Source: Cytophagales bacterium (GTDB lineage Bacteria; Bacteroidota; Bacteroidia; Cytophagales; Spirosomataceae). Taken from it: a stretch of 64,000 nucleotides of DNA. Every line of letters starts with the position of its first letter. The stretch's first letter is position 1. The notes under the pieces were generated by a model, which searched no databases, was not told the origin of the DNA, and was given only the letters and a program-made list of their open reading frames with translations. Location: contig JAAFJE010000005.1 of NCBI GenBank assembly GCA_013298025.1, positions 62,001 through 126,000 on the forward strand, given 5' to 3'. The translations under genes were made by a program, and so were the position numbers. Positions 122 to 13,420 of the stretch are shown here, piece by piece.

Positions 122-1291
122 ATGAATTTAAGTTGTCAGAAAGCCCTATTCAACCTCGACGAAGGGGTTCATTACATCAACTGTGCCACCATGTCGCCCA
201 ACCTTATCAGTGTAGAAACGGCTGGCATACAGGGTATTTTACGAAAATCGCAGCCGCAAAACATTACTTCGCAAGACTTTTTTGAGGTTACGCAGCCTGT
301 CAAGAATGCTTATGCCAAACTGATTAATTGTCCAGACCCCGAACGCCTCGTAATGATTCCTTCTACGTCTTATGGCATGGCTATTGTAGCGAAGAATTTG
401 CCCCATAAAGCAGGCTTGCAAGCCCAACAACGCATTGTGATGGTAGCCGAAGAATTTCCATCAGATGTGTATGCTTGGGAAGAAGTTTGTGCCGAACAAA
501 ACTTGCGTATGCACGTGGTGGCTGCTCCGCCAAGCTTACAAGACCGAGGGAAACAATGGAATGAGCAACTCTTGGCTGCCATTACGCCAAACACCTGTAT
601 GGTGGTGATTTCGCCTGTGCATTGGGCCGATGGCACGCAGTTCGACTTGGTGGCTATTGGCAAGCAATGCCGTGCGGTAGGGGCATGGTTGGTGTTAGAC
701 GGAACGCAGGCCATTGGAGCGATGCCTTTCGACTGGGCATTGGTACAGCCCGATGCCATTGTCAATGTGGGGTATAAATGGCTTTTGGGGCCTTATGCCT
801 CTGGTATCATGTATTTGGGGCCTTGTTTCGACGAAGGGCGACCGCTCGAACGCAATTGGATTAATCGGGTGGGGTCGGATGATTTCAAAAATTTGGTACA
901 ATACCAAACGGCTTATAGGCCTAAAGCCGAACGCTACAACATGGGTGAGCGAAGCAATTTTATCCTAAACCCTATGCTTGCCACCGCTATTGAGCAAATC
1001 AATGCTTGGGGCGTAGGAGCAATTCAGGCGTATTGCCAGCAATTATTGGCAGAACCTTTGGCTTTGCTGCAACAAAAAGGTTGTTGGGTCGAAGAGGAGG
1101 CATACCGAAGTAAACACTTGGTTGGCGTGCGACTGCCCAGCCATGCCCGTACAGAACGCATCCGACAGCAATTGCATGAACGCAATATTTTTGTTTCGTT
1201 TAGAGGGGAGGCTATTCGGATTGCTCCACACGTGTATAACGATGCCAACGACATGGCTGCCTTGGTCGATGCTTTGTTGAAAGGATTGTAA
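122..1291 (+). CDS. Aminotransferase class V-fold PLP-dependent enzyme
   Basis: This 389-residue protein belongs to the class V aminotransferase/cysteine desulfurase fold, which uses pyridoxal phosphate. The cofactor lysine is expected in the motif NVGYKWLLGP near residue 219, preceded by the aspartate-containing stretch LVLDGTQAIGA that packs on the cofactor ring. Length and order of these motifs are normal for the family. The substrate cannot be told from sequence; related proteins include kynureninase-like and isopenicillin N epimerase-like enzymes, and a true cysteine desulfurase would need a catalytic cysteine loop that I do not clearly see. It stands alone, with a terminator-like hairpin just downstream, and converges on the hsdR gene. 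Confidence 0.85.
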   Translation: MNLSCQKALFNLDEGVHYINCATMSPNLISVETAGIQGILRKSQPQNITSQDFFEVTQPVKNAYAKLINCPDPERLVMIPSTSYGMAIVAKNLPHKAGLQAQQRIVMVAEEFPSDVYAWEEVCAEQNLRMHVVAAPPSLQDRGKQWNEQLLAAITPNTCMVVISPVHWADGTQFDLVAIGKQCRAVGAWLVLDGTQAIGAMPFDWALVQPDAIVNVGYKWLLGPYASGIMYLGPCFDEGRPLERNWINRVGSDDFKNLVQYQTAYRPKAERYNMGERSNFILNPMLATAIEQINAWGVGAIQAYCQQLLAEPLALLQQKGCWVEEEAYRSKHLVGVRLPSHARTERIRQQLHERNIFVSFRGEAIRIAPHVYNDANDMAALVDALLKGL

Positions 1292-1346: not shown

Positions 1347-4300
1347 TTATCCAACCATTGCTTTGCGGTTGGTTTCTTCGATGATTTGAATGATTTTTTG
1401 GTCATTGGTTGGAAAAACGCCACTGACACCGCTTTCGTGAAATTTGGTAAAGGGTGGCTCAAAAAGCATTTCGGGGTCTATTTTACCATTGGCGGTGAAT
1501 TGCTTGATGATAAATTCGATAAAGGTTATCTGTTCTGATGTTAATGGGCCATTAGAAAGAAAAGAGGAAAAAGCTTCTCTTACAGCCTGAACGTCCATAC
1601 CCAATATAGAACGAACAAATTCGCCAAGGGGCTTGTCGCCTATGATTTTTTTGAACTCTTCGTGCGTTGCTACGCCCGATTGCTCGAATAGCATTTTATC
1701 AAGAGCATCTAATTCAAAGCTCGTAATGGCTTGATTGGTGTGTAGCCTATGAATGGTTAGATTATGAGCATTTTCTAAAACGATTTTTTTCAATTTTGCA
1801 TAATGACTTTCAAAATTTCCATAGCTGCCAGCGAAGTCTTCTATTACTAAAGGGGCTGTGATTTCGTCTTGAAAATTGGTGTAAAATATCCCTTTCCCTG
1901 TGCCTACTTCTATCAATTTACTCAAATCTCGTATGGCTATACGCACTTGTTCAAGGCTTGGAATAGATACGCTTTCCCAGTATTCTTGTTGTACCAACAT
2001 TGCTAAAACAGGCTTTTTTTGAGCAATCGAAGGTACTTCGTCTGCCTTTCTCAGCAATTCGCCAGCCATTACTTTGAGCTTTTCAACATAGCCTCTTTGC
2101 GACCGCTCGTTTCTTAGGATAGCTAATTGCATTTTGACCATCATTAAATCAAAACGCTTGACTAATTCATGGCTTTCTTCGTTTTGGATTAAAGGGGCAA
2201 TATGTTCTCGTAAATCTTGTAAATCGTTGTTGTTGAGCGAACTCCAACTACTGATTTTGCTATAATGCTCTACCTGCCTGAGATGCAACCGTACTTCAAA
2301 ACCACTATTGGCTTCGAGGTTGCTTACTTGGCTTTGCAGGTTTTCTGCCAGGGCTTTTGCTAAAGCGAAGTCTTCGCTTTCAGGATGAGCGTTACCTTGT
2401 GTTTGTAACAAAAACACCAATTCGCATCGTGAAACAAAGGTATTGGCTGTAACAGACATTGATTTGCTCGGAATTATACCAGCAGGATTGAGTCCAAAAA
2501 AATCGAATGTACCACAAACATCAAACACGAAAAAGTCTTGTTTGTCTTCATCTGGGGCAAATATATCTTTGCAAAGCCTTGTACCTCTTCCCAACATTTG
2601 CCAAAACTTTGCTGCTGAAAAAACAGGTTTAAAAAATACCAAATTCAGAATTTCGGGAACATCAATACCTGTATCAAGCATATCAACCGAAATGGCAAGT
2701 TGAGGATACTTTTGTTTGAGTCTGAAATCATCAATACTTCGCTCGGCATTGGTATCGTAGTTGTCGATTACTTTTGCAAAAGAGGCATCCTGGTGTGGAT
2801 AAAGCTGATAGAATCGCTCAAATATAAATTCGGCGTGTTTGTGATTGCGGGCAAAAATGATGGTTTTACCTAATTTGTCGCCTCCTTCTACTTTATGCCC
2901 ATATTCCATCAACGATTGAAGTACTTTATCAACCGTATCTTGGTTGAATAGCCATTGATTTATCGCACCTGAATCTATTTCGTCGATGATTTCACCCGTA
3001 GCAGGGTCATAAAATTTCCTTTCCCATTCTCTCTTTTCTTCTTCTGATAAATCGGCATAGCATATGCCTTGCGTTGGGAATTTAAGTGGTAATTTGATTT
3101 TTTTTACAGGTACTAAAAACGCATCGGCAATGGCTGTTTCGTACTCATAAGCATCGGTTGGCTCTTCTTGCAAATGATGAAAAAGGGCATAAGTATCTCT
3201 ATCAGTTTCGTTTTTGGGGGTGGCTGTCAAGCCTAAATAAAGGGCATCGAAGTACTCGAATACCGAACCGTATTTGTCATAAATAGAACGGTGTGCTTCG
3301 TCGATAATCACTAAATCAAAATGCCCAATGCCGTAATATCGCTTTTCGTTTCGATAATCGCTGTCTATGCGGTTGATAATGGTCTGATACGTAGAAAAAA
3401 CCATCCGTGCCTTGCCGTCGTCCTCTTCTTTGGTGAGGTCGATACCCGTGAGGTTTGGTAAATATTGGTTGAAGTTATTTTTGGCTTGTGTCACCAAAGC
3501 GTTGCGGTCTGCTAAAAATAAGATTTTTTTGGCCCATTGTGCCTTGGTAAGCATATCTACAATGGCGGCTGAAACCCTCGTTTTGCCCGTACCTGTTGCC
3601 ATGACCAACAAAGCCCTGCGTTGTTTTTCTTGCTCAAATCGCTCGGCTACTCTTCTGATGGCTCTTTCTTGATAATATCGGTTGGCAATATGTTGATTTA
3701 CCTTTTGTTCTTTCAGTACTTTACGCTGTGCTTTTCGTACAAAAACTCTTTGTAGTTCTTCTGCATTTAAAAAGCCAAATACTTTGCGTGGGGGATATTG
3801 GGCATCATCCCACAAATAGGTATCGTACCCGTTGGTATAAAAAATGATAGGACGCTGCCCATACGTTTGTTCAAGGGCATCGGCATAATGCTTGGCTTGG
3901 TTTCTGCCTCGTTCTACGGCTACACTGGTGCGTTTGGCTTCTATCACCGCCAAAGGTTTGCCATCATTGCCCCAAAGTACATAATCTGCCTTTAGTGTTG
4001 TGGTCTTTTTGCTGGCTTCGTCGGTGGCTTGTATCGGAAACTCCTGTACGTTGGGGGCTTCAATATCCCAACCCGACTGGCGTAGCATGACATCAATATA
4101 GAGCTTGCGGGTTTCTTTCTCCGATAATACCAAGGGGGCTGTCACCTCCCCGTTTTGTTGGCTGATTTGCTGATAATGAGCCAACTGTAAGCGTATTTGT
4201 TCTAATTCTTCTTGTGTCTGATTGAGTTCGGCTGTTCTTCGCTCTAATTCTATGCTTTTTTGTGCTGCTACTTCTTTGCGTATTTTTTCAATCTCTTTTT

Positions 4301-4751
4301 CTGTGAGTGCCAAAGATGTTTGGCTCGTCAGCTTTTCATCGAATGCCTGATAAGCTGGTTGATTTTCAGAGAAGGTTCTGGCTACGGCAAAACAAAACCG
4401 AAACAGGTATTTTACACAGGCAAGGGCTTCATTACTTGGAATATTGATGCTTTTGTGTGCAGCATCGTTGCCTCTACTTTTGATAAAACTCAATTCTTTG
4501 CCAAAGTGCTTTCCCCACGTTTGTTGAAAACTTTGCTCCCAAATCAAATCATTTAGGTTGATTTGGCTTTTGTTGGGCAATGCCAAGGTACTGTCATGGT
4601 CGTAGAGCCATGTCAGCATTTCTTCTAGGGCTTTTCTGCTCAATAAAGCAGCATATACAGGCTCTTGATAAACGTTACTTTCAGCTTTCTGAGCTGTTTT
4701 GTAGATTTCCGACCAATCGTTTATAAGAAAAGCAAAGTTTGAGGTATTCAT
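1347..4751 (-). CDS. hsdR: Type I restriction enzyme subunit R (HsdR)
   Basis: This 1134-residue protein is the motor and nuclease subunit of a type I restriction-modification complex. Residues 1-130 resemble a DUF4145-type N-terminal domain and are followed by a coiled coil at about 150-200. The nuclease core shows the PD-(D/E)XK pattern D256 and E271-A-K273. The helicase begins with Walker A ATGTGKT near 385-391, has DEAH at 484-487, and later the motif with QMLGRGTRL. The C-terminal third matches EcoEI-type HsdR. It cleaves unmodified DNA after ATP-driven translocation, acting with HsdM and HsdS. It is the last gene of the leftward operon, separated from hsdM by 364 bases of tandem repeats. 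Confidence 0.95.
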   Translation of the reverse strand: MNTSNFAFLINDWSEIYKTAQKAESNVYQEPVYAALLSRKALEEMLTWLYDHDSTLALPNKSQINLNDLIWEQSFQQTWGKHFGKELSFIKSRGNDAAHKSINIPSNEALACVKYLFRFCFAVARTFSENQPAYQAFDEKLTSQTSLALTEKEIEKIRKEVAAQKSIELERRTAELNQTQEELEQIRLQLAHYQQISQQNGEVTAPLVLSEKETRKLYIDVMLRQSGWDIEAPNVQEFPIQATDEASKKTTTLKADYVLWGNDGKPLAVIEAKRTSVAVERGRNQAKHYADALEQTYGQRPIIFYTNGYDTYLWDDAQYPPRKVFGFLNAEELQRVFVRKAQRKVLKEQKVNQHIANRYYQERAIRRVAERFEQEKQRRALLVMATGTGKTRVSAAIVDMLTKAQWAKKILFLADRNALVTQAKNNFNQYLPNLTGIDLTKEEDDGKARMVFSTYQTIINRIDSDYRNEKRYYGIGHFDLVIIDEAHRSIYDKYGSVFEYFDALYLGLTATPKNETDRDTYALFHHLQEEPTDAYEYETAIADAFLVPVKKIKLPLKFPTQGICYADLSEEEKREWERKFYDPATGEIIDEIDSGAINQWLFNQDTVDKVLQSLMEYGHKVEGGDKLGKTIIFARNHKHAEFIFERFYQLYPHQDASFAKVIDNYDTNAERSIDDFRLKQKYPQLAISVDMLDTGIDVPEILNLVFFKPVFSAAKFWQMLGRGTRLCKDIFAPDEDKQDFFVFDVCGTFDFFGLNPAGIIPSKSMSVTANTFVSRCELVFLLQTQGNAHPESEDFALAKALAENLQSQVSNLEANSGFEVRLHLRQVEHYSKISSWSSLNNNDLQDLREHIAPLIQNEESHELVKRFDLMMVKMQLAILRNERSQRGYVEKLKVMAGELLRKADEVPSIAQKKPVLAMLVQQEYWESVSIPSLEQVRIAIRDLSKLIEVGTGKGIFYTNFQDEITAPLVIEDFAGSYGNFESHYAKLKKIVLENAHNLTIHRLHTNQAITSFELDALDKMLFEQSGVATHEEFKKIIGDKPLGEFVRSILGMDVQAVREAFSSFLSNGPLTSEQITFIEFIIKQFTANGKIDPEMLFEPPFTKFHESGVSGVFPTNDQKIIQIIEETNRKAMVG

Positions 4752-5115: not shown

Positions 5116-6585
5116 TCAAATCTTCAATAAAGCTTCCAAAGCTGATAGGCCTTTTTGGCGTTCGATGTCTAAAAGATGTATTTTTTCAAGAATCACAGAA
5201 GGCTTTTCGTAGTGTTTTTCTTGGTGAATTACTTCTTTATAACGGTTGATACTAAGGTCGTAATTATTTGCCTGAATTTCATTGAATGGCACAAAAAAAG
5301 ATTTATCCGTGCGTTTGCGGTCTTGTTCTTGAACCAAATTATGGTAGCGTGCTACGATGTCTGGAATGTCGTTCTGGTCGGGGGTTTCTTGGCGTTTGTC
5401 GTCGAGGCTGTAGCCATCTGCTTGCATATCATAAAACCAAACTTTATCTGTTCCGCCCGAATTGGTTTTTGAAAAAATCAAAATGGCGGTGCTTACCCCT
5501 GCATAAGGTTTGAATACGCCCGAAGGCATCGAAATTACTGCCTTCAACTGATGCCCTTCTATGATTTCTTTCCTGATTTGTACGTGTGCTTTCGATGAGC
5601 CAAACAATACGCCGTCGGGTACGATTACCGCCGCTCGTCCGCCAATTTTTAAGCCTCTGAGTATAAGCCCTAAAAATAGCAATTCTGTTTTCTTGGAGCT
5701 AACAAGCGAAAGAATATTTTTCTCTACGGCATCGTGGTCGAGGCTTCCTTTAAAAGGCGGATTGGCCAATACCAAACTGGCTTTGTTCACAAAACCGCTA
5801 TTTCCTTCCGAAAGTGCATCTACGTCTATCAAATTGGGTTTTTCGATGCCGTGCATGAGCATATTCATCGAACCAATCCGAATCATGGTTGCGTCAAATT
5901 CAGTTCCGATAAACATATCTTCGTTGAAATGCTTTCTGAAATGCGGGTCTGTAATAAAGCGTTCTTCGTACTTTTCTTGAATGTACTCGGCTGAGGCTAC
6001 CAAAAAGCCACAAGTACCTGCCGAGGGGTCACAAATGGTATCTTGGGGTGTGGGTTGCATCATATCAACCATCATCTTGATAATGTGGCGTGGTGTACGA
6101 AACTGCCCGTTTGTGCCTGCCGTGGCAATTTTAGACAACAAGTACTCGTAAATATCGCCTTTGGCATCTCGTGAGGTCATCGACACATCGCTGAGTAAAT
6201 CCACTACTTGCGTTAAAAGCCTGGGTGTCGGAATCATAAAAGTTGCCCCTTTCATAAAGCGACTGAATGAGTTGTCTTGCCCCATATTTTTCATAAAATC
6301 GAATACGCCGTTTTCTTTGGTAAAGAGTCGGTACAAATCTTCGGCTTCACGGTCTTTGAAATAGCTCCAACGCAATTCTTGTTGTGTTTCGTCAAAAATA
6401 GGCGATTCTATGGCTTTGCCCAAACGATTGGCTTTCAATTCTTTGACTGCTTGAAGTTCGTCGAGCCTTTTGATAAATAACAAATACGTAATCTGTTCAA
6501 TTACGGTCAATGGGTTAGAAACTCCGCCTGTCCAAAAGGCATTCCAGATTTTATCTATTTGTGTGCGTTTTTCGCCTGTAAGCAT
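5116..6585 (-). CDS. hsdM: Type I restriction-modification methyltransferase subunit (HsdM)
   Basis: This 489-residue protein is the N6-adenine methyltransferase subunit of the type I complex. It has an N-terminal HsdM helical domain (about 1-130), the S-adenosylmethionine motif DPSAGTCGF at 186-194, and the catalytic NPPF motif at 275-278. Two copies join one HsdS to methylate hemimethylated sites, and with HsdR they form the restriction complex. Length is typical. It is followed by hsdR and preceded by the toxin-antitoxin pair on the same strand. Confidence 0.95.
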   Translation of the reverse strand: MLTGEKRTQIDKIWNAFWTGGVSNPLTVIEQITYLLFIKRLDELQAVKELKANRLGKAIESPIFDETQQELRWSYFKDREAEDLYRLFTKENGVFDFMKNMGQDNSFSRFMKGATFMIPTPRLLTQVVDLLSDVSMTSRDAKGDIYEYLLSKIATAGTNGQFRTPRHIIKMMVDMMQPTPQDTICDPSAGTCGFLVASAEYIQEKYEERFITDPHFRKHFNEDMFIGTEFDATMIRIGSMNMLMHGIEKPNLIDVDALSEGNSGFVNKASLVLANPPFKGSLDHDAVEKNILSLVSSKKTELLFLGLILRGLKIGGRAAVIVPDGVLFGSSKAHVQIRKEIIEGHQLKAVISMPSGVFKPYAGVSTAILIFSKTNSGGTDKVWFYDMQADGYSLDDKRQETPDQNDIPDIVARYHNLVQEQDRKRTDKSFFVPFNEIQANNYDLSINRYKEVIHQEKHYEKPSVILEKIHLLDIERQKGLSALEALLKI

Positions 6586-6967: not shown

Positions 6968-7363
6968 TTACCTATATTTTCGGGGGTTAAGGTAACGTAA
7001 ATGTGGAATCTTTCCGAAATCTGAATCATTATCTGATAATAGTATCAAATCATGGCATAAAGCAGTAGCTGCAATGATAGCATCAGGAAGTTTTATTTTA
7101 TAAAGTTTTCTAAGCTCTATTGTTTTTAACACAATAGGCTCTGAAAGACTGTATTCTTCGCAAACATCTAAAAAAAGGTAAATAGTTTTTAAGAGTTCTT
7201 CATTCTTAGGTGAAAAACTTAGCAATTCGATACGAGTAATGATAGATATTTGACTTTCAGATGCTTCAAGTATCGTATCTATCAAGGATAAACCTTGTTC
7301 TGAAAGTGTTTCTTCAAAATACTTGGTGACTACATTAGTGTCAATTAAATATCTCTTTCCCAT
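6968..7363 (-). CDS. vapC: PIN-domain toxin, VapC family
   Basis: This 131-residue protein has the PIN ribonuclease layout: DTN near residues 8-10, an acidic residue in ITRIELLSF near 62, the DAIIAATA helix near 94-101, and a final acidic SDNDSDF near 109-115. VapC toxins cut RNA, often initiator tRNA or rRNA, when freed from their antitoxin. It overlaps the upstream antitoxin gene by 19 bases. Its position inside a type I restriction operon is unusual. Confidence 0.88.
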   Translation of the reverse strand: MGKRYLIDTNVVTKYFEETLSEQGLSLIDTILEASESQISIITRIELLSFSPKNEELLKTIYLFLDVCEEYSLSEPIVLKTIELRKLYKIKLPDAIIAATALCHDLILLSDNDSDFGKIPHLRYLNPRKYR

Positions 7364-7605
7364 TCATTTCGGCTATTCTCAAAGTAATGCTTAATTTCTT
7401 CTTTGTCTTGTGAAGTAATATTTTTCCAAGCACCTCTCAATGCTCCCTTCAATGTTGAGGCTGGCACAAATGAGGCTGGTGTTGCGTCTGTGTTTACTTC
7501 TTCTTCTGTAAACATGACAAATACCCTTACTTTATGGGTAACTGCTGGTTTTTCTTTAAGAATTATCTGACCGTTGTCATAAATTCCTTCTATGGCTGTA
7601 AGCAT
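7345..7605 (-). CDS. Antitoxin of the VapC-like toxin (AF2212/DUF104-like)
   Basis: This 86-residue protein starts with TAIEGIYDNGQIILKEKP, the N-terminal beta-strand wording of the small antitoxins of the AF2212/DUF2281 group. Its C-terminal half is charged and probably wraps the toxin. It lies directly before the PIN toxin gene and overlaps it, as expected of an antitoxin. These antitoxins usually repress their own promoter; I cannot point to an operator. The pair sits between hsdS and hsdM. Confidence 0.75.
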   Translation of the reverse strand: MLTAIEGIYDNGQIILKEKPAVTHKVRVFVMFTEEEVNTDATPASFVPASTLKGALRGAWKNITSQDKEEIKHYFENSRNEWERDI

Positions 7606-7642: not shown

Positions 7643-8836
7643 CTACCCAAAATACTCCGCCAAAAGCCCCTCAAACAATGCCTCACTCTCCGCCAACGAT
7701 TGCTGTACCAAACTTTTCTGTGCCTCTATCTCTTCTACTATCTTGGCAAAATGCTGCTGGAGAGGGAGGGGGGGAATGGGGATTGGAAGAGATTTTAGCG
7801 ATTCTGTGTTTATATTGTAATTCCCTGCTGTTGTTGTTGCTTTCTTTAAAATAATTGGTCTGTATGTTTCATAAGAAATTATGAACTGAATTATTTGAGG
7901 TAAAATGATAGTATCTTTTTTTAACCTAGCCCTTATGAGGTAAGATGCAAATCCACATTTCTGTTCATCAAAAAAAACAGCACATCTTCCAATGTATGCT
8001 GGATTACCATTACTTCTGACAAACAGTAAATCACCATTTTTCAATTCTACCTCAGACATTTCTTTTTCTGATAATTCAGAATATTTTAAGTCTCTAAAGT
8101 TAACTTTATTATCTAATACATTAGGAATCCTAATTATCGGTATGGTATTTTCATATCTTATACTATCTGATTTTTCATTAGTACCATACTTGAACTTTTC
8201 TACAACCTCCCCCAACTTCTTCACCTCCCAACCCTTTTCATTTTTCACAGGGTCGCCAAACAACTCAATAAAAGTACTTTGCAAAAGCTCATCGTAATAG
8301 CCCAAAAGCTGACGGTTTTGTTGGCGTAAAGCATCGGCTTGGTCTAATACTTGGGCAATGTGTTGTTGGGTGGCGAGGGCTCTTACTTTAATATCAAGCT
8401 CATTTATGTATCTTGATAGTTGTAAATTAATGATACCAGTAGTTTTATTTTGAAATTTGAGTGTATTCTTAGATTGATGATTATGAAAAAGAAACCAAAA
8501 GAAATACTTTGAGTCAAAGTTTTTATCTTTTAATCTTAATACAGAAGTAAAATTATTGCAGAGGAATATTTCATTAGTGATGTCAAAATAAACTACTCGT
8601 CCAACAGGTTGGCTTGGGCTGCCTCCTGATTTTTCAATTATTGTGTCTCCAAATTCTAATTTTTTCTTTTCAATCTTTTTTAAATCAACATTACGGCATA
8701 CAACTTCAGACAAATTTAGCTTGCCCTCATTTGTAAAATTTGTGGTACGAATTATTTTAACATTGTTGCCTTCATCTCCCCATTCTCCCGATATAGGCTC
8801 GTAAATTACCTCACTTACTTTCTTCCAATTCATCAT
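7643..8836 (-). CDS. hsdS: Type I restriction-modification specificity subunit (HsdS)
   Basis: This 397-residue protein carries two target-recognition domains of the type I S family, each followed by a helical spacer. The first spacer includes ATQQHIAQVLDQADALRQQN (about residues 155-175) and the second PLQQHFAKIVEEIEAQK near the C-terminus. The two domains each read half of a bipartite DNA site. It is the first gene of the operon, with a good promoter box upstream. No second or inverted hsdS fragment is visible, so there is no sign here of shuffling of specificity. Confidence 0.93.
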   Translation of the reverse strand: MMNWKKVSEVIYEPISGEWGDEGNNVKIIRTTNFTNEGKLNLSEVVCRNVDLKKIEKKKLEFGDTIIEKSGGSPSQPVGRVVYFDITNEIFLCNNFTSVLRLKDKNFDSKYFFWFLFHNHQSKNTLKFQNKTTGIINLQLSRYINELDIKVRALATQQHIAQVLDQADALRQQNRQLLGYYDELLQSTFIELFGDPVKNEKGWEVKKLGEVVEKFKYGTNEKSDSIRYENTIPIIRIPNVLDNKVNFRDLKYSELSEKEMSEVELKNGDLLFVRSNGNPAYIGRCAVFFDEQKCGFASYLIRARLKKDTIILPQIIQFIISYETYRPIILKKATTTAGNYNINTESLKSLPIPIPPLPLQQHFAKIVEEIEAQKSLVQQSLAESEALFEGLLAEYFG

Positions 8837-8861
8837 TTGTCTAATGGTGTTTTATTTTATG

Positions 8862-8893
8862 CAAAAATAAGGTGTAGTAAGTTGTAAAGCCAA
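8862..8893 (-). promoter_or_regulatory. Candidate promoter of the hsd operon
   Basis: Read on the minus strand, TATTTTTG (8862-8869) fits the -7 consensus TAnnTTTG and a TTG lies at 8891-8893, 21 bases upstream. The hsdS start codon is about 26 bases downstream of the box. Confidence 0.55.
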
Positions 8894-8972
8894 GCCTAGC
8901 CACAACAAACCATTTTCAAATTTTCAAATCATCAAATTTTCAAATTCCTAAACCTTCAAATTACCCATACGC

Positions 8973-9926
8973 TTAAAACACACTACGCACAAACGCAACG
9001 AGAGCGTCCAGCAAGCCAGTAGCCAAGGGTAGGTTTGGGTTTTGGTAATTCTGCAAGGTTTCGGCTCTGTCGAGCGAGCCATGTTTCAAAACATGGTTCA
9101 TTTGTGGGATAATTTGATAGACAGCATGAGGTACAGCTTGGTGCAGGCGTTCGGCCTCTTGCACCGCCACTTGTATATCGGCATCACCCTGAAGAATCGC
9201 CACAGGCACAGGCACTTTGGCTATTTCTTGTTGGGGCGTATAACGTAACCACGAAATCATGTAGGGCTGCACCGTAGTACGAAAAAGGCTATAAATCACG
9301 AGGTGTTGCATGATTTTAGGAATGGTTTTGCCTTGTTTGAGTTGGGCAAAATACGCCTCAATCGTAGTATTCACCGAGTCGGGGAGGGTTTGGGCTTTGA
9401 GTTGGTCTTTGATAACCTCATCGGCCGAGCGAGCGATACCAGCCAACGAAACAAAGCCATGCACCTTTTTTTGCTGTGCCAACAACATTCCCACAAGCGA
9501 GCCTTCTGAATGTCCTACAATGATAATATGCTTGAAACGAGGCATTGTTTGAAGGGTGTCTAAAAACCGACCAGCGTCTTTTACGCCATCTTCAAAACGC
9601 ATATCAATCTCTTTCATGCCAGCCGTAAAGCTTTGGGCAATGCCTCTTTTATCGTACCGAAAACTAGCAATGCCTTGTTTGGCTAGGGCTTCTGCCAACA
9701 AGCGATAAGGCTGTGCTTTTACACCCAAGGGGTTGTTGCCTTGGCGGTCGGTTGGCCCAGAACCAGCAATGATAAGCACCAACGCACAAGGCTGATTTCC
9801 TTCGGGGGCAAGTAAAGTGCCTTCTAAACTTCCTTTGTCTTGCAGCATACGAATGGTTTGCTCTTGTTGTGCCAATCCTTTGAAGCTCAGGAGGATAAAA
9901 AGGATAAATGCTAAAAGATGTTTCAT
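8973..9926 (-). CDS. Secreted alpha/beta hydrolase
   Basis: This 317-residue protein has a signal peptide (hydrophobic residues 4-18, then GLAQ as likely cleavage site). The fold is alpha/beta hydrolase: an oxyanion-type GSGPTDR stretch near 56-62, nucleophile elbow GHSEG near 138-142, and a late histidine in MNHVLKH near 276-282. Relatives are described as dienelactone-hydrolase- or esterase-like. The substrate is unknown. It is monocistronic, transcribed away from the ATPase gene. Confidence 0.85.
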   Translation of the reverse strand: MKHLLAFILFILLSFKGLAQQEQTIRMLQDKGSLEGTLLAPEGNQPCALVLIIAGSGPTDRQGNNPLGVKAQPYRLLAEALAKQGIASFRYDKRGIAQSFTAGMKEIDMRFEDGVKDAGRFLDTLQTMPRFKHIIIVGHSEGSLVGMLLAQQKKVHGFVSLAGIARSADEVIKDQLKAQTLPDSVNTTIEAYFAQLKQGKTIPKIMQHLVIYSLFRTTVQPYMISWLRYTPQQEIAKVPVPVAILQGDADIQVAVQEAERLHQAVPHAVYQIIPQMNHVLKHGSLDRAETLQNYQNPNLPLATGLLDALVAFVRSVF

Positions 9927-10024
9927 GGTAAGGGGGGATGTTTTTCGTTATCAGCACTCATATTTAGTAGATTATCGTTGTTAATTTTAAAATTACCAAA
10001 GTAAATATATCAAGTTCTATTTTA

Positions 10025-10032
10025 TAACTTTG
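10025..10032 (+). promoter_or_regulatory. Candidate -7 box (TAACTTTG) of the ATPase-nuclease pair
   Basis: The octamer fits TAnnTTTG and ends 18 bases before the ATPase start codon. No clear -33 TTTG is present at the usual distance. Confidence 0.45.
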
Positions 10033-10050
10033 TAAGAAATGTAAGCCCTT

Positions 10051-11322
10051 ATGAACGTAGAAAGAATACACATAGAAAATTTCGGAGGAATAAATAATAT
10101 GACGTTTGACTTTAAGTCAATCAACTTACTTATTGGTCCACAGGGTTCTGGAAAAAGTGTGACGGTAAAGTTATTATACTTTTTTAAAAACTTCATGAAT
10201 GAAATCATAAAAAGCATTGAGAATGAAGAAACAAAAAGAGACTTAGACCAAAGGCAAAAAGAAACTTTTATAAACTTTTTCCCCAAAGAATCTTGGAGTA
10301 AAGACGATTTTTTTATTACATATTCTTATGAAAATACGTCCATTGATATTCGGAAAATCGACCATAAAATCAGTTTTACTTATTCAGAAAACATTAAGGC
10401 TGTATTAAAAAAAGGCAAAAAGATTTACCAAGAAGAAAAGGCCAAATTACTCGAAAATAGAAAAGTACCTAATTTTAATATAAAAAGGCAAATCAACGAA
10501 AAGATTCAGGATTGTGTTAAAAATGAACTAGGAAGCCTATCTACTTTTGACCAATTTTTTATTCCTGCTGGTAGGAGTTTCTTTGCCAATATCCAAAGTA
10601 GCATATTTTCTTTTTTGAGTGATAATAGGTCATTAGACCCATTTTTAATTGAATTTGGGTCGTTTTATGAAAATCTAAAACGTTTTTACAGTGACGTATT
10701 AGCAGAGGATAAAAATGACAAAGAATATGATGAATTGATTGCGGAGGTGTTGAATAGTACGTATATCAGAGAAAAAGAAAAAGACTATCTCGTACATAAA
10801 GACCAAAGAAAGGTTAATTTAACCAACGCTTCTTCTGGTCAACAAGAAACATTGCCATTGGTTATTATTCTTAAAACGCTCACAAAAATTAGTTCTGTAG
10901 GCGGAGGTATTACGCTTTACATTGAAGAGCCAGAAGCACATTTATTTCCTAGTGCCCAAAAACGAATAGTAGAACTATTGGCTCGTACTTTTAATAGTAC
11001 CGATAACAAGTTTCAAATATTTGTTACAACGCATAGCCCATATATACTTTCTTCTTTCAATAACTTAATTTATGCTGGAAATATCAAAAACAGGTTGAAG
11101 TTGGAAGGAAAAAAGTATGATAAATTAAACAAAATTATCTCTACAAAAGAACAACTGACAAGCGACTTATTTAGTGTGTATTCCTTGAGTAACAACGAGC
11201 AAAAAGATTTAATTGAGCAAGAATCAAACCTTATTTCTCAAACTATTTTAGATGCTGTTTCGGATGAAATTTCAATAGCATTTGATAAACTTTTAAACAT
11301 TGACTTCTCGAATGAATTGTAA
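10051..11322 (+). CDS. AAA_15/OLD-type ABC ATPase, candidate defence protein
   Basis: This 423-residue protein is an SMC/ABC-like ATPase of the AAA_15/AAA_21 type. It has Walker A GPQGSGKS at 29-36, signature ASSGQQ at 260-265, Walker B LYIEEPEAHLF at 289-299 and the switch histidine TTHSP at 326-330. The insert between is short and helical. No TOPRIM nuclease domain is fused, unlike OLD or GajA. ATPases of this class often drive a partner nuclease in phage defence (for example PARIS, Septu or RloA/B-like pairs). Here the partner would be the small overlapping downstream gene. The defence role is inference from this arrangement and from the nearby restriction operon. Confidence 0.88.
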   Translation: MNVERIHIENFGGINNMTFDFKSINLLIGPQGSGKSVTVKLLYFFKNFMNEIIKSIENEETKRDLDQRQKETFINFFPKESWSKDDFFITYSYENTSIDIRKIDHKISFTYSENIKAVLKKGKKIYQEEKAKLLENRKVPNFNIKRQINEKIQDCVKNELGSLSTFDQFFIPAGRSFFANIQSSIFSFLSDNRSLDPFLIEFGSFYENLKRFYSDVLAEDKNDKEYDELIAEVLNSTYIREKEKDYLVHKDQRKVNLTNASSGQQETLPLVIILKTLTKISSVGGGITLYIEEPEAHLFPSAQKRIVELLARTFNSTDNKFQIFVTTHSPYILSSFNNLIYAGNIKNRLKLEGKKYDKLNKIISTKEQLTSDLFSVYSLSNNEQKDLIEQESNLISQTILDAVSDEISIAFDKLLNIDFSNEL

Positions 11323-11713
11323 GAAAGAATCATCTCAGAAACTATTTACATTTGAGCAAAACAGAAGCAAATTAACGCTTGAAAATGTTGACCAAGTTAA
11401 GTCAATAGAAATACTTGTAGATGGCTGCGAAATAAACGACAATACGCTCAGATGCGATTATATGTTACTGGCCAAAGGAATAGAGTTTTACATAGAACTT
11501 AAAGGACAAGACTTACTGCATGCTGTAAGCCAGATTAAGGCAACAATCAAGCGTTTATCACCCGAATTTAAGAATAAAAACAAAAAAGCATACGTCATTT
11601 GCACAAGAAGTCCTCTTAGTTCTACTCAAATTCAATCTTTAAAATATGATTTATTAAAGAACTTTAATGCCGACCTACAAGTGAAATGTTCACCACACAA
11701 AGACAAATATTAA
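11312..11713 (+). CDS. Small PD-(D/E)XK-like protein coupled to the ATPase
   Basis: I chose ATG 11312, which overlaps the ATPase stop by 11 bases; a TTG twelve bases earlier is possible. The product is 133 residues. Its core CDY at 48-50 and IELKGQ at 61-66 gives a D49 and E62-L-K64 pattern, followed by a helix AVSQIKATIKRL, like the PD-(D/E)XK nuclease fold. I do not recognise a named family; it does not resemble the HNH protein PtuB or the TOPRIM protein AriB. The tight overlap suggests translational coupling and a joint complex. Confidence 0.65.
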   Translation: MNCKKESSQKLFTFEQNRSKLTLENVDQVKSIEILVDGCEINDNTLRCDYMLLAKGIEFYIELKGQDLLHAVSQIKATIKRLSPEFKNKNKKAYVICTRSPLSSTQIQSLKYDLLKNFNADLQVKCSPHKDKY

Positions 11714-11734
11714 AGACTCGGCCATAATACACTT

Positions 11735-13420
11735 TTACTTCCTTGCACTCGTACCTACCAAATCAAACGTAAGGGCAAACACCACAACCAATACACAGCC
11801 AATGAGGTTGAGCCATAAAAAGGCGGTGAGGTCTATCCACCAAGCATAAATAACGAAGATTTCGGCTAAAATGGCTGCCCAAAATACGGCACTTCCTCGA
11901 ATATGTTTGAGGTAAAACGCCACCAGAAAAACGCCCAAAATAGTGCCATAAAACCAAGACCCCAAGATGTTTACGGCTTCTATCAAACTGCCAATATTGG
12001 CTGTAAATTGTGCTACAATGATACAGAAAATGCCCCAGCCTAGCGTTACCCAACGAGATACATTGAGGTAATGTTGGTCGGAGTCTTGCCCATGGATGAG
12101 CCTTTTGTAAATGTCGATAATGGTACAAGAAGTAAGCGAGCCAAACGCCGATGCCATCGACCCCATCGAGGCAAGCAGAATGACAGCAATGAGCAAACCA
12201 ACCATGCCCACGGGTAAATATTGCGTAACAAAAGAAAGAAAGATATAATTGGTATCGTTGGTGTCGGCGTGCTGGTCTTGTGCCTTAATCAAATCTTTGG
12301 TGGCGTTGCGTAGCTCGTTGTGGGCTTGGTCGGCTTTTTGGACGGCTTGTTGTTGTTGGGCTATAGCCTCGGCATCATCTTTTTGTAGGGCTGTGACCAA
12401 TTGATTTACTGCCGCTTTTTTGTGCACAAATACTTCGTGTTGGGCGGTTTCCAAAGCCTTATAACTGGCTTGCTTGCTTACTTTGTCGAGTATGGTTTTA
12501 TTGAAAAAAAGTGGCGGTTGGTTGAATTGATAAAAAACAAATACCAATGCCCCTACCAACAAAATCAAGAATTGCATGGGTATTTTTAGGATGCCGTTCA
12601 TGAGTAATCCAAGGCGGCTTTCGCCAACAGACTCGCCCGACAAATAACGCCCCACCTGCGATTGGTCTGTGCCAAAGTACGATAGTTGCAAAAAGAACCC
12701 ACCTATCAGCCCCGACCATACATTATAGCGGTTGTTGAGGTCGAATTTCCAGTCTATCGCATTCAGTTTGCCCATTTTGCCTGCAACTTTGAGCGTATCA
12801 ATAAAGCCCATGTTGGAAGGAAGCAAATGCACCACCATGTAGCCCGCCAAAAACATCCCTACCAATACCACAAACATTTGTTGCATTTGGGTATAAGAAA
12901 TGGTTTTTGAGCCACCAATCATGCAATAGAGCGTTACGACTGTTCCCGTCAGGATATTCGTCCAATACAAGTCCCAACCCAAAATGGTGGACAAAATAAT
13001 AGACGGAGCAGCGATGGTTACGCCTGTGGATAAAGCCCTTGGGATAAGGAATAGGAACGACGTAAGAATGCGTGTTTTGAGGTCGAAACGTCCTTCTAAA
13101 AATTCATAAGCCGTATAAACATTGAGTTTTTTGAAGATTGGAATAAACGTCACCGAAAGGACTATCATGGCAAGAGGTAAGCCAAAATAAAACTGAACAA
13201 AACGCATTCCGTCGGTATAAGCTTGTCCTGGTGCCGACAAAAACGTAATGGCACTGGCTTGCGTTGCCATCACCGAAAGCGTAACATGGTACCAAGGTAG
13301 TTGCTTATCAGCTAATAAGAAGCCCTCTACGCTTTTGCGTGAAGCACGACCTTTCCAGATACCAAAAGTAATGATAGTACCCAAGGTGAGTACCAATACA
13401 AGCCAGTCTATAGTATTCAT
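11735..13420 (-). CDS. Sodium:solute symporter with a soluble coiled-coil insert
   Basis: This 561-residue inner-membrane protein belongs to the SSS family (SglT/PutP-like), importing a solute with sodium. The first twelve or so membrane segments include family wording near residues 45-75 and 240-262 (SYFGTDQSQVGRYLSG). Between about 305 and 388 lies a hydrophilic, Q/A/K-rich segment predicted to be helical, not part of the usual fold; the membrane part resumes at NYIFLSFVTQYLP. The substrate is unknown; a sugar or sialic-acid-like compound would fit the neighbouring sialidase-fold protein, but that is a guess. A 40-residue membrane protein is encoded just upstream. Confidence 0.9.
   Translation of the reverse strand: MNTIDWLVLVLTLGTIITFGIWKGRASRKSVEGFLLADKQLPWYHVTLSVMATQASAITFLSAPGQAYTDGMRFVQFYFGLPLAMIVLSVTFIPIFKKLNVYTAYEFLEGRFDLKTRILTSFLFLIPRALSTGVTIAAPSIILSTILGWDLYWTNILTGTVVTLYCMIGGSKTISYTQMQQMFVVLVGMFLAGYMVVHLLPSNMGFIDTLKVAGKMGKLNAIDWKFDLNNRYNVWSGLIGGFFLQLSYFGTDQSQVGRYLSGESVGESRLGLLMNGILKIPMQFLILLVGALVFVFYQFNQPPLFFNKTILDKVSKQASYKALETAQHEVFVHKKAAVNQLVTALQKDDAEAIAQQQQAVQKADQAHNELRNATKDLIKAQDQHADTNDTNYIFLSFVTQYLPVGMVGLLIAVILLASMGSMASAFGSLTSCTIIDIYKRLIHGQDSDQHYLNVSRWVTLGWGIFCIIVAQFTANIGSLIEAVNILGSWFYGTILGVFLVAFYLKHIRGSAVFWAAILAEIFVIYAWWIDLTAFLWLNLIGCVLVVVFALTFDLVGTSARK

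Follow-up and report, generated by a model that had tools for sequence, protein, structure and literature searches.

A candidate WonAB-type anti-phage gene pair, an OLD-type ABC ATPase with a small PD-(D/E)XK-like protein, beside type I restriction genes in a Cytophagales bacterium

What a compact pair of overlapping genes does for its host is the question raised by this locus. The window, meaning the whole stretch of 64,000 nucleotides that was analyzed, encodes an ABC ATPase and, overlapping its end, a protein of 133 residues (Table 1), and an earlier note had proposed that the two form a defense unit of an ATPase and a PD-(D/E)XK protein. That proposal was supported by the predicted core of the small protein and by the constancy of the pairing, with the anti-phage role a prediction. 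The pair is an already described kind of defense system and not a new kind. It fits the WonAB type by organization, motifs and primer-encoded peptides, rather than by comparison with the WonA and WonB sequences themselves, and would add a compact Bacteroidota member to that recently described type. By analogy, we consider it likely that the pair is a WonAB-type anti-phage cassette in which a nuclease, held by the ATPase and activated by phage, cuts a target needed for translation such that growth stops. We favor this explanation because of the pairing, the C-D-E-x-K residues, the model, the PDC-M29 matches, the WonAB-like organization and residues, and the apparent transfer of the two genes as a unit.

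Table 1. Features of the window around the ATPase-nuclease gene pair
Feature	Position	Strand	Basis or remark
Aminotransferase-like gene	122-1291		Flank of variable segment
hsdR	1347-4751	-	Named by reading the sequence
hsdM	5116-6585	-	Named by reading the sequence
PIN-domain protein and small upstream partner, VapBC-like by arrangement	6968-7605	-	Between hsdM and hsdS
hsdS	7643-8836	-	Pfam
Leader common to window and F. branchiophilum	10009-10050	+	Holds TAACTTTG at 10025-10032
OLD-type ABC ATPase, WonA-like, PDC-M29A-like	10051-11322	+	423 aa; Pfam, PADLOC, motifs, tree
Overlap of both genes	11312-11322	+	11 bases; ORF coordinates
Small PD-(D/E)XK-like nuclease (predicted), WonB-like, PDC-M29B-like	11312-11713	+	133 aa; D49, E62, K64
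Symporter gene	11735-13420		Flanks the pair

The upstream gene encodes an ATPase for which complete ABC motifs and no fused nuclease had been claimed, and the motifs could be located. Walker A (GPQGSGKS) occupies residues 29-36, PAGRSF residues 172-177, SSGQQ residues 261-265, LYIEEPEAH residues 289-297 and TTHSPY residues 326-331. The Pfam models AAA_15 (E = 3.2e-25, spanning residues 1-332) and AAA_21 (E = 7.3e-22) both scored over their cut-offs, and Pfam found neither a fused nuclease nor a TOPRIM domain in the protein. Rad50 and the OLD family are among its sequence relatives. In PADLOC, the best row was AriA (4e-30), followed by PDC-M29A (1.1e-28), with further matches to PtuA (6.8e-19) and PD-T4-4_A (1.5e-15). 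The portion beyond the H-loop is conserved, and the dN/dS against the homolog of Flavobacterium branchiophilum is 0.066/1.62 (NG86). We note that the host genome holds five more ATPase matches (best E = 9.6e-10), and thus other OLD-like ATPases are present there.

The downstream gene runs from an ATG to its stop as tabulated, with an alternative TTG at 11300 that would give 137 residues, and the coordinates agree with the earlier claim that it starts 11 bases inside the ATPase gene. Its dN/dS against the F. branchiophilum homolog is 0.105/1.37, or about 0.08 (NG86). For this protein, Pfam gave nothing at E up to 1, PHROGs had no family and no match at 0.01, and NCBIfam gave just two weak and unrelated rows (0.03 and 0.15). 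It matches PDC-M29B in PADLOC (4.2e-7). D49, E62 and K64, which had been read as residues of a nuclease fold, were confirmed at those positions. Among 49 small proteins of the family alignment, whose counts are not independent because near-identical copies such as L126, L127 and L130 are included, the column of C48 is always C, that of D49 is D in 46 and E in 3, that of E62 is always E, and that of K64 is K in 48 and Q in one. An upstream D-x-C motif is less constant than these columns, with exceptions present. From the dN/dS and the kept E-x-K residues, we conclude that the sequence argues for a real gene and for a motif beyond chance.

How the small protein folds was approached by prediction. 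An AlphaFold2 model built from the window protein, its F. branchiophilum homolog and nine relatives from viral contigs reached a pLDDT of 87.2 and a pTM of 0.84; of the five models made, two were above a pLDDT of 85 and the other three at 68 or lower. A first model built from two sequences (pLDDT 47.3) was discarded along with its structure search. The core of the good model consists of a strand at residues 50-54, a strand at 57-62, a helix at 68-82, a strand at 90-97 and a helix at 105-118. Strand-strand-helix-strand-helix is the element order of the PD-(D/E)XK core, and in the model D49 immediately precedes the first core strand while E62 ends the second. No solved structure was matched significantly: the likeliest Foldseek rows were the nickase BspD6I (E = 0.038, probability 0.98), NucS and Can2, with EndoMS and others lower and with unrelated entries, a mitoribosomal protein for example, interspersed among the nucleases. 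VIA-align returned Can2, EndoMS, Cdn1, Card1, FokI, NucS and Avs4 at Z of 5.7-6.1 (best about 6), with acetyl-CoA carboxylase and small (Rab-like) GTPases likewise at Z of 5 to 5.9. A sequence search of solved structures gave no relative of the small protein, the few weak rows being unrelated proteins. When 28 rows (27 family members and one false hit, L089) were scanned against Pfam, single relatives touched PDDEXK_9 (0.005, no better than unrelated families at 0.0034-0.009), HSDR_N_2 (0.011) and NERD (0.021), and one relative touched Cas4 in PADLOC (6.4e-4). Thus, a PD-(D/E)XK nuclease fold is very likely from the motif and the model, which gave a confident core of this kind and no non-nuclease fold, and is unproved by the database matches, which are not significant alone. 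Together, the family alignment and the confident model name the residues to mutate.

A survey of homologs found that the small gene keeps its ATPase. In all 40 places that were retrieved through the small protein and kept, the window included, the ATPase gene lies immediately upstream of the small gene on the same strand. Three further places had been dropped before counting: one with three in-frame stops and no ATPase (L032/L071), one with a 41-residue fragment next to a 103-residue ATPase fragment (L026/L072), and one with an E value of 8.6e-4, no E-x-K motif and no ATPase (L081/L089; L089 is still a row of alignment A3, and its neighbors remained in the neighbor set). Three of the loci counted as pairs (L054, L067 and L132) have an ATPase frame that appears broken. 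The two genes overlap by 4 bases in 21 of the 37 loci in which both were called, and the 11-base overlap in the window probably reflects translational coupling.

The pair also appears to travel as such. Its closest relative, from F. branchiophilum, has 88% in common with the ATPase and 80% with the small protein, and DNA homology (81.3%) runs from 10009 to 11714 and ends there, which is the two genes plus 42 bases. Since the homology ends at the edges of the gene pair, we conclude that the two genes appear to move as a mobile two-gene unit, although the upstream edge rests on only 48 bases because the F. branchiophilum contig begins that far before the matching stretch. The unit of transfer would then be the two genes alone. 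The 42 leader bases keep TAACTTTG, whose form is that of a Bacteroidota -7 box. Sigma-70-like patterns were not above shuffles, and no Rfam match was found within 8800-12000. The G+C content is 31% in the pair versus 47% and 44% in the flanking genes.

Relatives of the pair are scattered. The pair is absent from all four congeners, and the small protein as a query found one locus in the genome-contig scan, a match in 2 of 59 related genomes (the host's own included), none in plasmids and one in phages. The small proteins of relatives served as further queries. A PADLOC family search matched 29 of 395 genomes of the phylum, and a search with the small-protein alignment matched 8 of 395 genomes of the class. 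Some relatives of the pair are on plasmids; the window ATPase itself had no plasmid match (tblastn, 1e-15). When viral contigs were scanned, neither the small protein nor its alignments retrieved a relative, and the ATPase alignment retrieved 20 loci there, the 9 best with the small gene next to the ATPase and the 11 weaker without it. The pair is also carried by two unannotated GenBank scaffolds of "Bacteriophage sp." from human feces (L041 and L146). In a tree of 33 ATPases, in which several long branches make the deeper forks unsure, the window and F. branchiophilum ATPases grouped with five from IMG/VR viral contigs (L125, L126, L128, L129 and L133) and with L087 (95/94), such that the window pair clusters with viral-contig pairs, and this clade is separate from a set holding the PDC-M29-type rows (97/94). 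A profile comparison shows homology between the small proteins of both sets (97.6%, E = 3.6e-12). One genome (G222) carries two pairs, L061 and L087, from two clades of the tree.

This distribution bears on whether the genes might instead be a module for DNA repair or for plasmid-style maintenance, made of an OLD/RecF-like ATPase and a nuclease. The kinship of the ATPase with Rad50 and the OLD family and the relatives on plasmids would suit such a module, which we nonetheless regard as highly improbable given the patchy occurrence and the relatives in viral contigs. Moreover, the company kept by related pairs tends to be defensive: 117 neighbors matched 288 PADLOC models at 1e-10 against 38 for 117 control proteins, a trend and not a probability because one protein matches many models. 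The neighbors were taken from 34 loci by a simple ORF call (up to two on each side, at least 100 residues, nine over 950 residues omitted), and the controls were drawn from 16 stretches elsewhere in 16 of these genomes. Finally, the WonAB report describes WonB as no simple toxin silenced by WonA (PMC12137116), which speaks against an addiction module.

Which described system the pair belongs to was decided largely by the partner of the ATPase. PARIS (AriA/AriB) and Septu (PtuA/PtuB) resemble the pair through the ATPase matches to AriA and PtuA given above, and the RloA/RloB arrangement includes RloB, a TOPRIM-like partner. The small protein has no TOPRIM or DUF4435 match and no HNH match at E up to 1 in Pfam or PADLOC, and it has no helicase match; nor does the ATPase carry the fused TOPRIM of Gabija or OLD. 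PARIS, Septu, Gabija and RloAB were rejected because the partner lacks a TOPRIM, HNH or helicase match, and the misfit to PARIS, Septu and RloA/B that had been claimed for the pair was borne out. PD-T4-4, matched by the ATPase, had no match to its B component in the small protein at E up to 1, and the WonAB report calls it similar to WonAB (PMC12137116). Its nuclease may still be a remote relation of the small protein. The candidate defense system PDC-M29 of PADLOC is closer, in that adjacent, overlapping genes match its A and B components, an assignment made by E value with PADLOC's own cut-offs aside, and in that the small-protein alignments of both branches match by profile. Unlike the window pair, however, the other branch matches the B models far better (L043, 5.7e-68), and the window ATPase is in a different clade. 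The name PDC-M29 was not found in the literature examined.

The closest described counterpart is WonAB. According to its report, WonAB is encoded by the WASA-1 prophage of V. cholerae, pairs an ABC ATPase of the OLD type with a small PD-(D/E)xK protein, and protects by abortive infection; WonA and WonB are both needed against phage ICP1, and K34A, R182A, E300A or H333A in WonA, or K71A in WonB, abolishes protection (PMC12137116). That report gives the accessions AWB73975.1 for WonA and AWB73976.1 for WonB, and SHI83489.1 and SHI83462.1 for a pair from Anaerovibrio (PMC12137116). In both systems the small protein follows an ABC ATPase that has OLD-type motifs and lacks a fused nuclease, and K35, R175, E293, H328 and K64 of the window are the counterparts of those five residues. 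Moreover, the published wonA primer encodes PQANGK, with the Walker lysine as its last residue, and the reverse primer for wonB encodes CDWILS in its only open frame (PMC12137116); GPQAxGKS and CDW or CDY are likewise present in viral-contig relatives of the pair. The wonA primer itself was not found in a set of 144 loci, nor the wonB primer in IMG/VR viral contigs. Unlike WonAB, the copy in the window is located next to type I restriction genes on a contig of 250 kb, and not in a known prophage. The authors of that report describe WonAB as part of a larger, still uncharacterized family and tie it to the operon "OLD-ABC ATPase + Novel REase" of an earlier survey by Krishnan et al. (PMC12137116), which is said to include all WonAB homologs and has the same two-gene organization as the window pair (PMC12137116, PMC12409358).

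How the pair would act is carried over from that one system. In the WonAB report, overproduction of WonB is toxic only with active WonA, and WonAB action stops growth and abolishes translation while genomic DNA stays intact, with rRNA or tRNA suggested as the target (PMC12137116). By analogy, the window pair very probably blocks phage infection through a shutdown of the cell, with the ATPase as a likely sensor and regulator. We infer an ABC-style dimer of the ATPase, in which the C-terminal extension would hold and stabilize the small nuclease, the part after the H-loop being a natural docking place. Phage replication would be sensed, ATP turnover would activate the nuclease, and the nuclease would then cut a molecule on which translation depends, probably tRNA or rRNA, so that growth would halt before phage particles are made, as in abortive infection. 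A PD-(D/E)XK enzyme acting on RNA, if true, would be unusual. The structural rows of this fold are mostly DNA cutters (BspD6I nickase, NucS/EndoMS, FokI and EcoT38I), and these, like the OLD and Rad50-type kin of the ATPase, would suit a restriction-like defense in which the ATPase recognizes phage DNA or a replication structure and the nuclease cuts that DNA with no cell shutdown. The intact host DNA and the loss of translation under WonAB argue against such cutting, as does the lack of a DNA-binding domain in either protein by Pfam and NCBIfam, and we consider it unlikely.

An adjoining type I restriction operon had been claimed, and hsdRMS are present; the pair is on the opposite strand, with a hydrolase gene in between. 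In three of the four congeners, the aminotransferase-like gene and the symporter gene are separated by 4.6 to 4.9 kb that hold other genes (in the fourth, the stretch examined ends short of the aminotransferase-like gene), versus a 10.4-kb segment in the window with hsdRMS, the PIN-domain pair, the hydrolase and the ATPase-nuclease pair. Since the same two genes flank different gene sets, the site looks like a variable spot for defense genes. A clean empty site was not found, as the hydrolase and symporter genes are not neighbors in the four congeners.

Alternatively, the pair might guard the restriction system and fire once a phage inhibits the neighboring enzyme. Three loci (L044, L045 and L050) have the pair placed between hsdS and hsdR, all on one strand, and in two others hsdR is downstream on the same strand (L043 and L065). 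At L050 (6390-14232, minus strand), hsdM, hsdS, a macro-domain gene, the ATPase, the nuclease and hsdR follow in a row, and by gene order the pair appears to be built into the operon, similarly to L044 and L045. At most loci, however, the neighbors scanned include no hsd genes adjacent to the pair, the F. branchiophilum homology is limited to the two genes, and the window pair is separated from hsd by strand and by the hydrolase gene. A guard is thus a very doubtful reading of the window. Pairs inside hsd operons nonetheless suggest a testable link between restriction and abortive infection. As a long shot, we speculate that WonAB-like pairs in hsd operons might be a second line when a phage disables restriction, and that the window pair might be a mobile guard of this sort with an RNA-acting nuclease. 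Eight long neighbors scanned singly gave four type I restriction enzymes, one Cas13b and three proteins with no match, and other neighbors of related pairs are ordinary housekeeping genes. The Cas13b-like protein (PADLOC, 3.6e-255) is encoded at L056:11804-15307, about 1 kb from a related pair.
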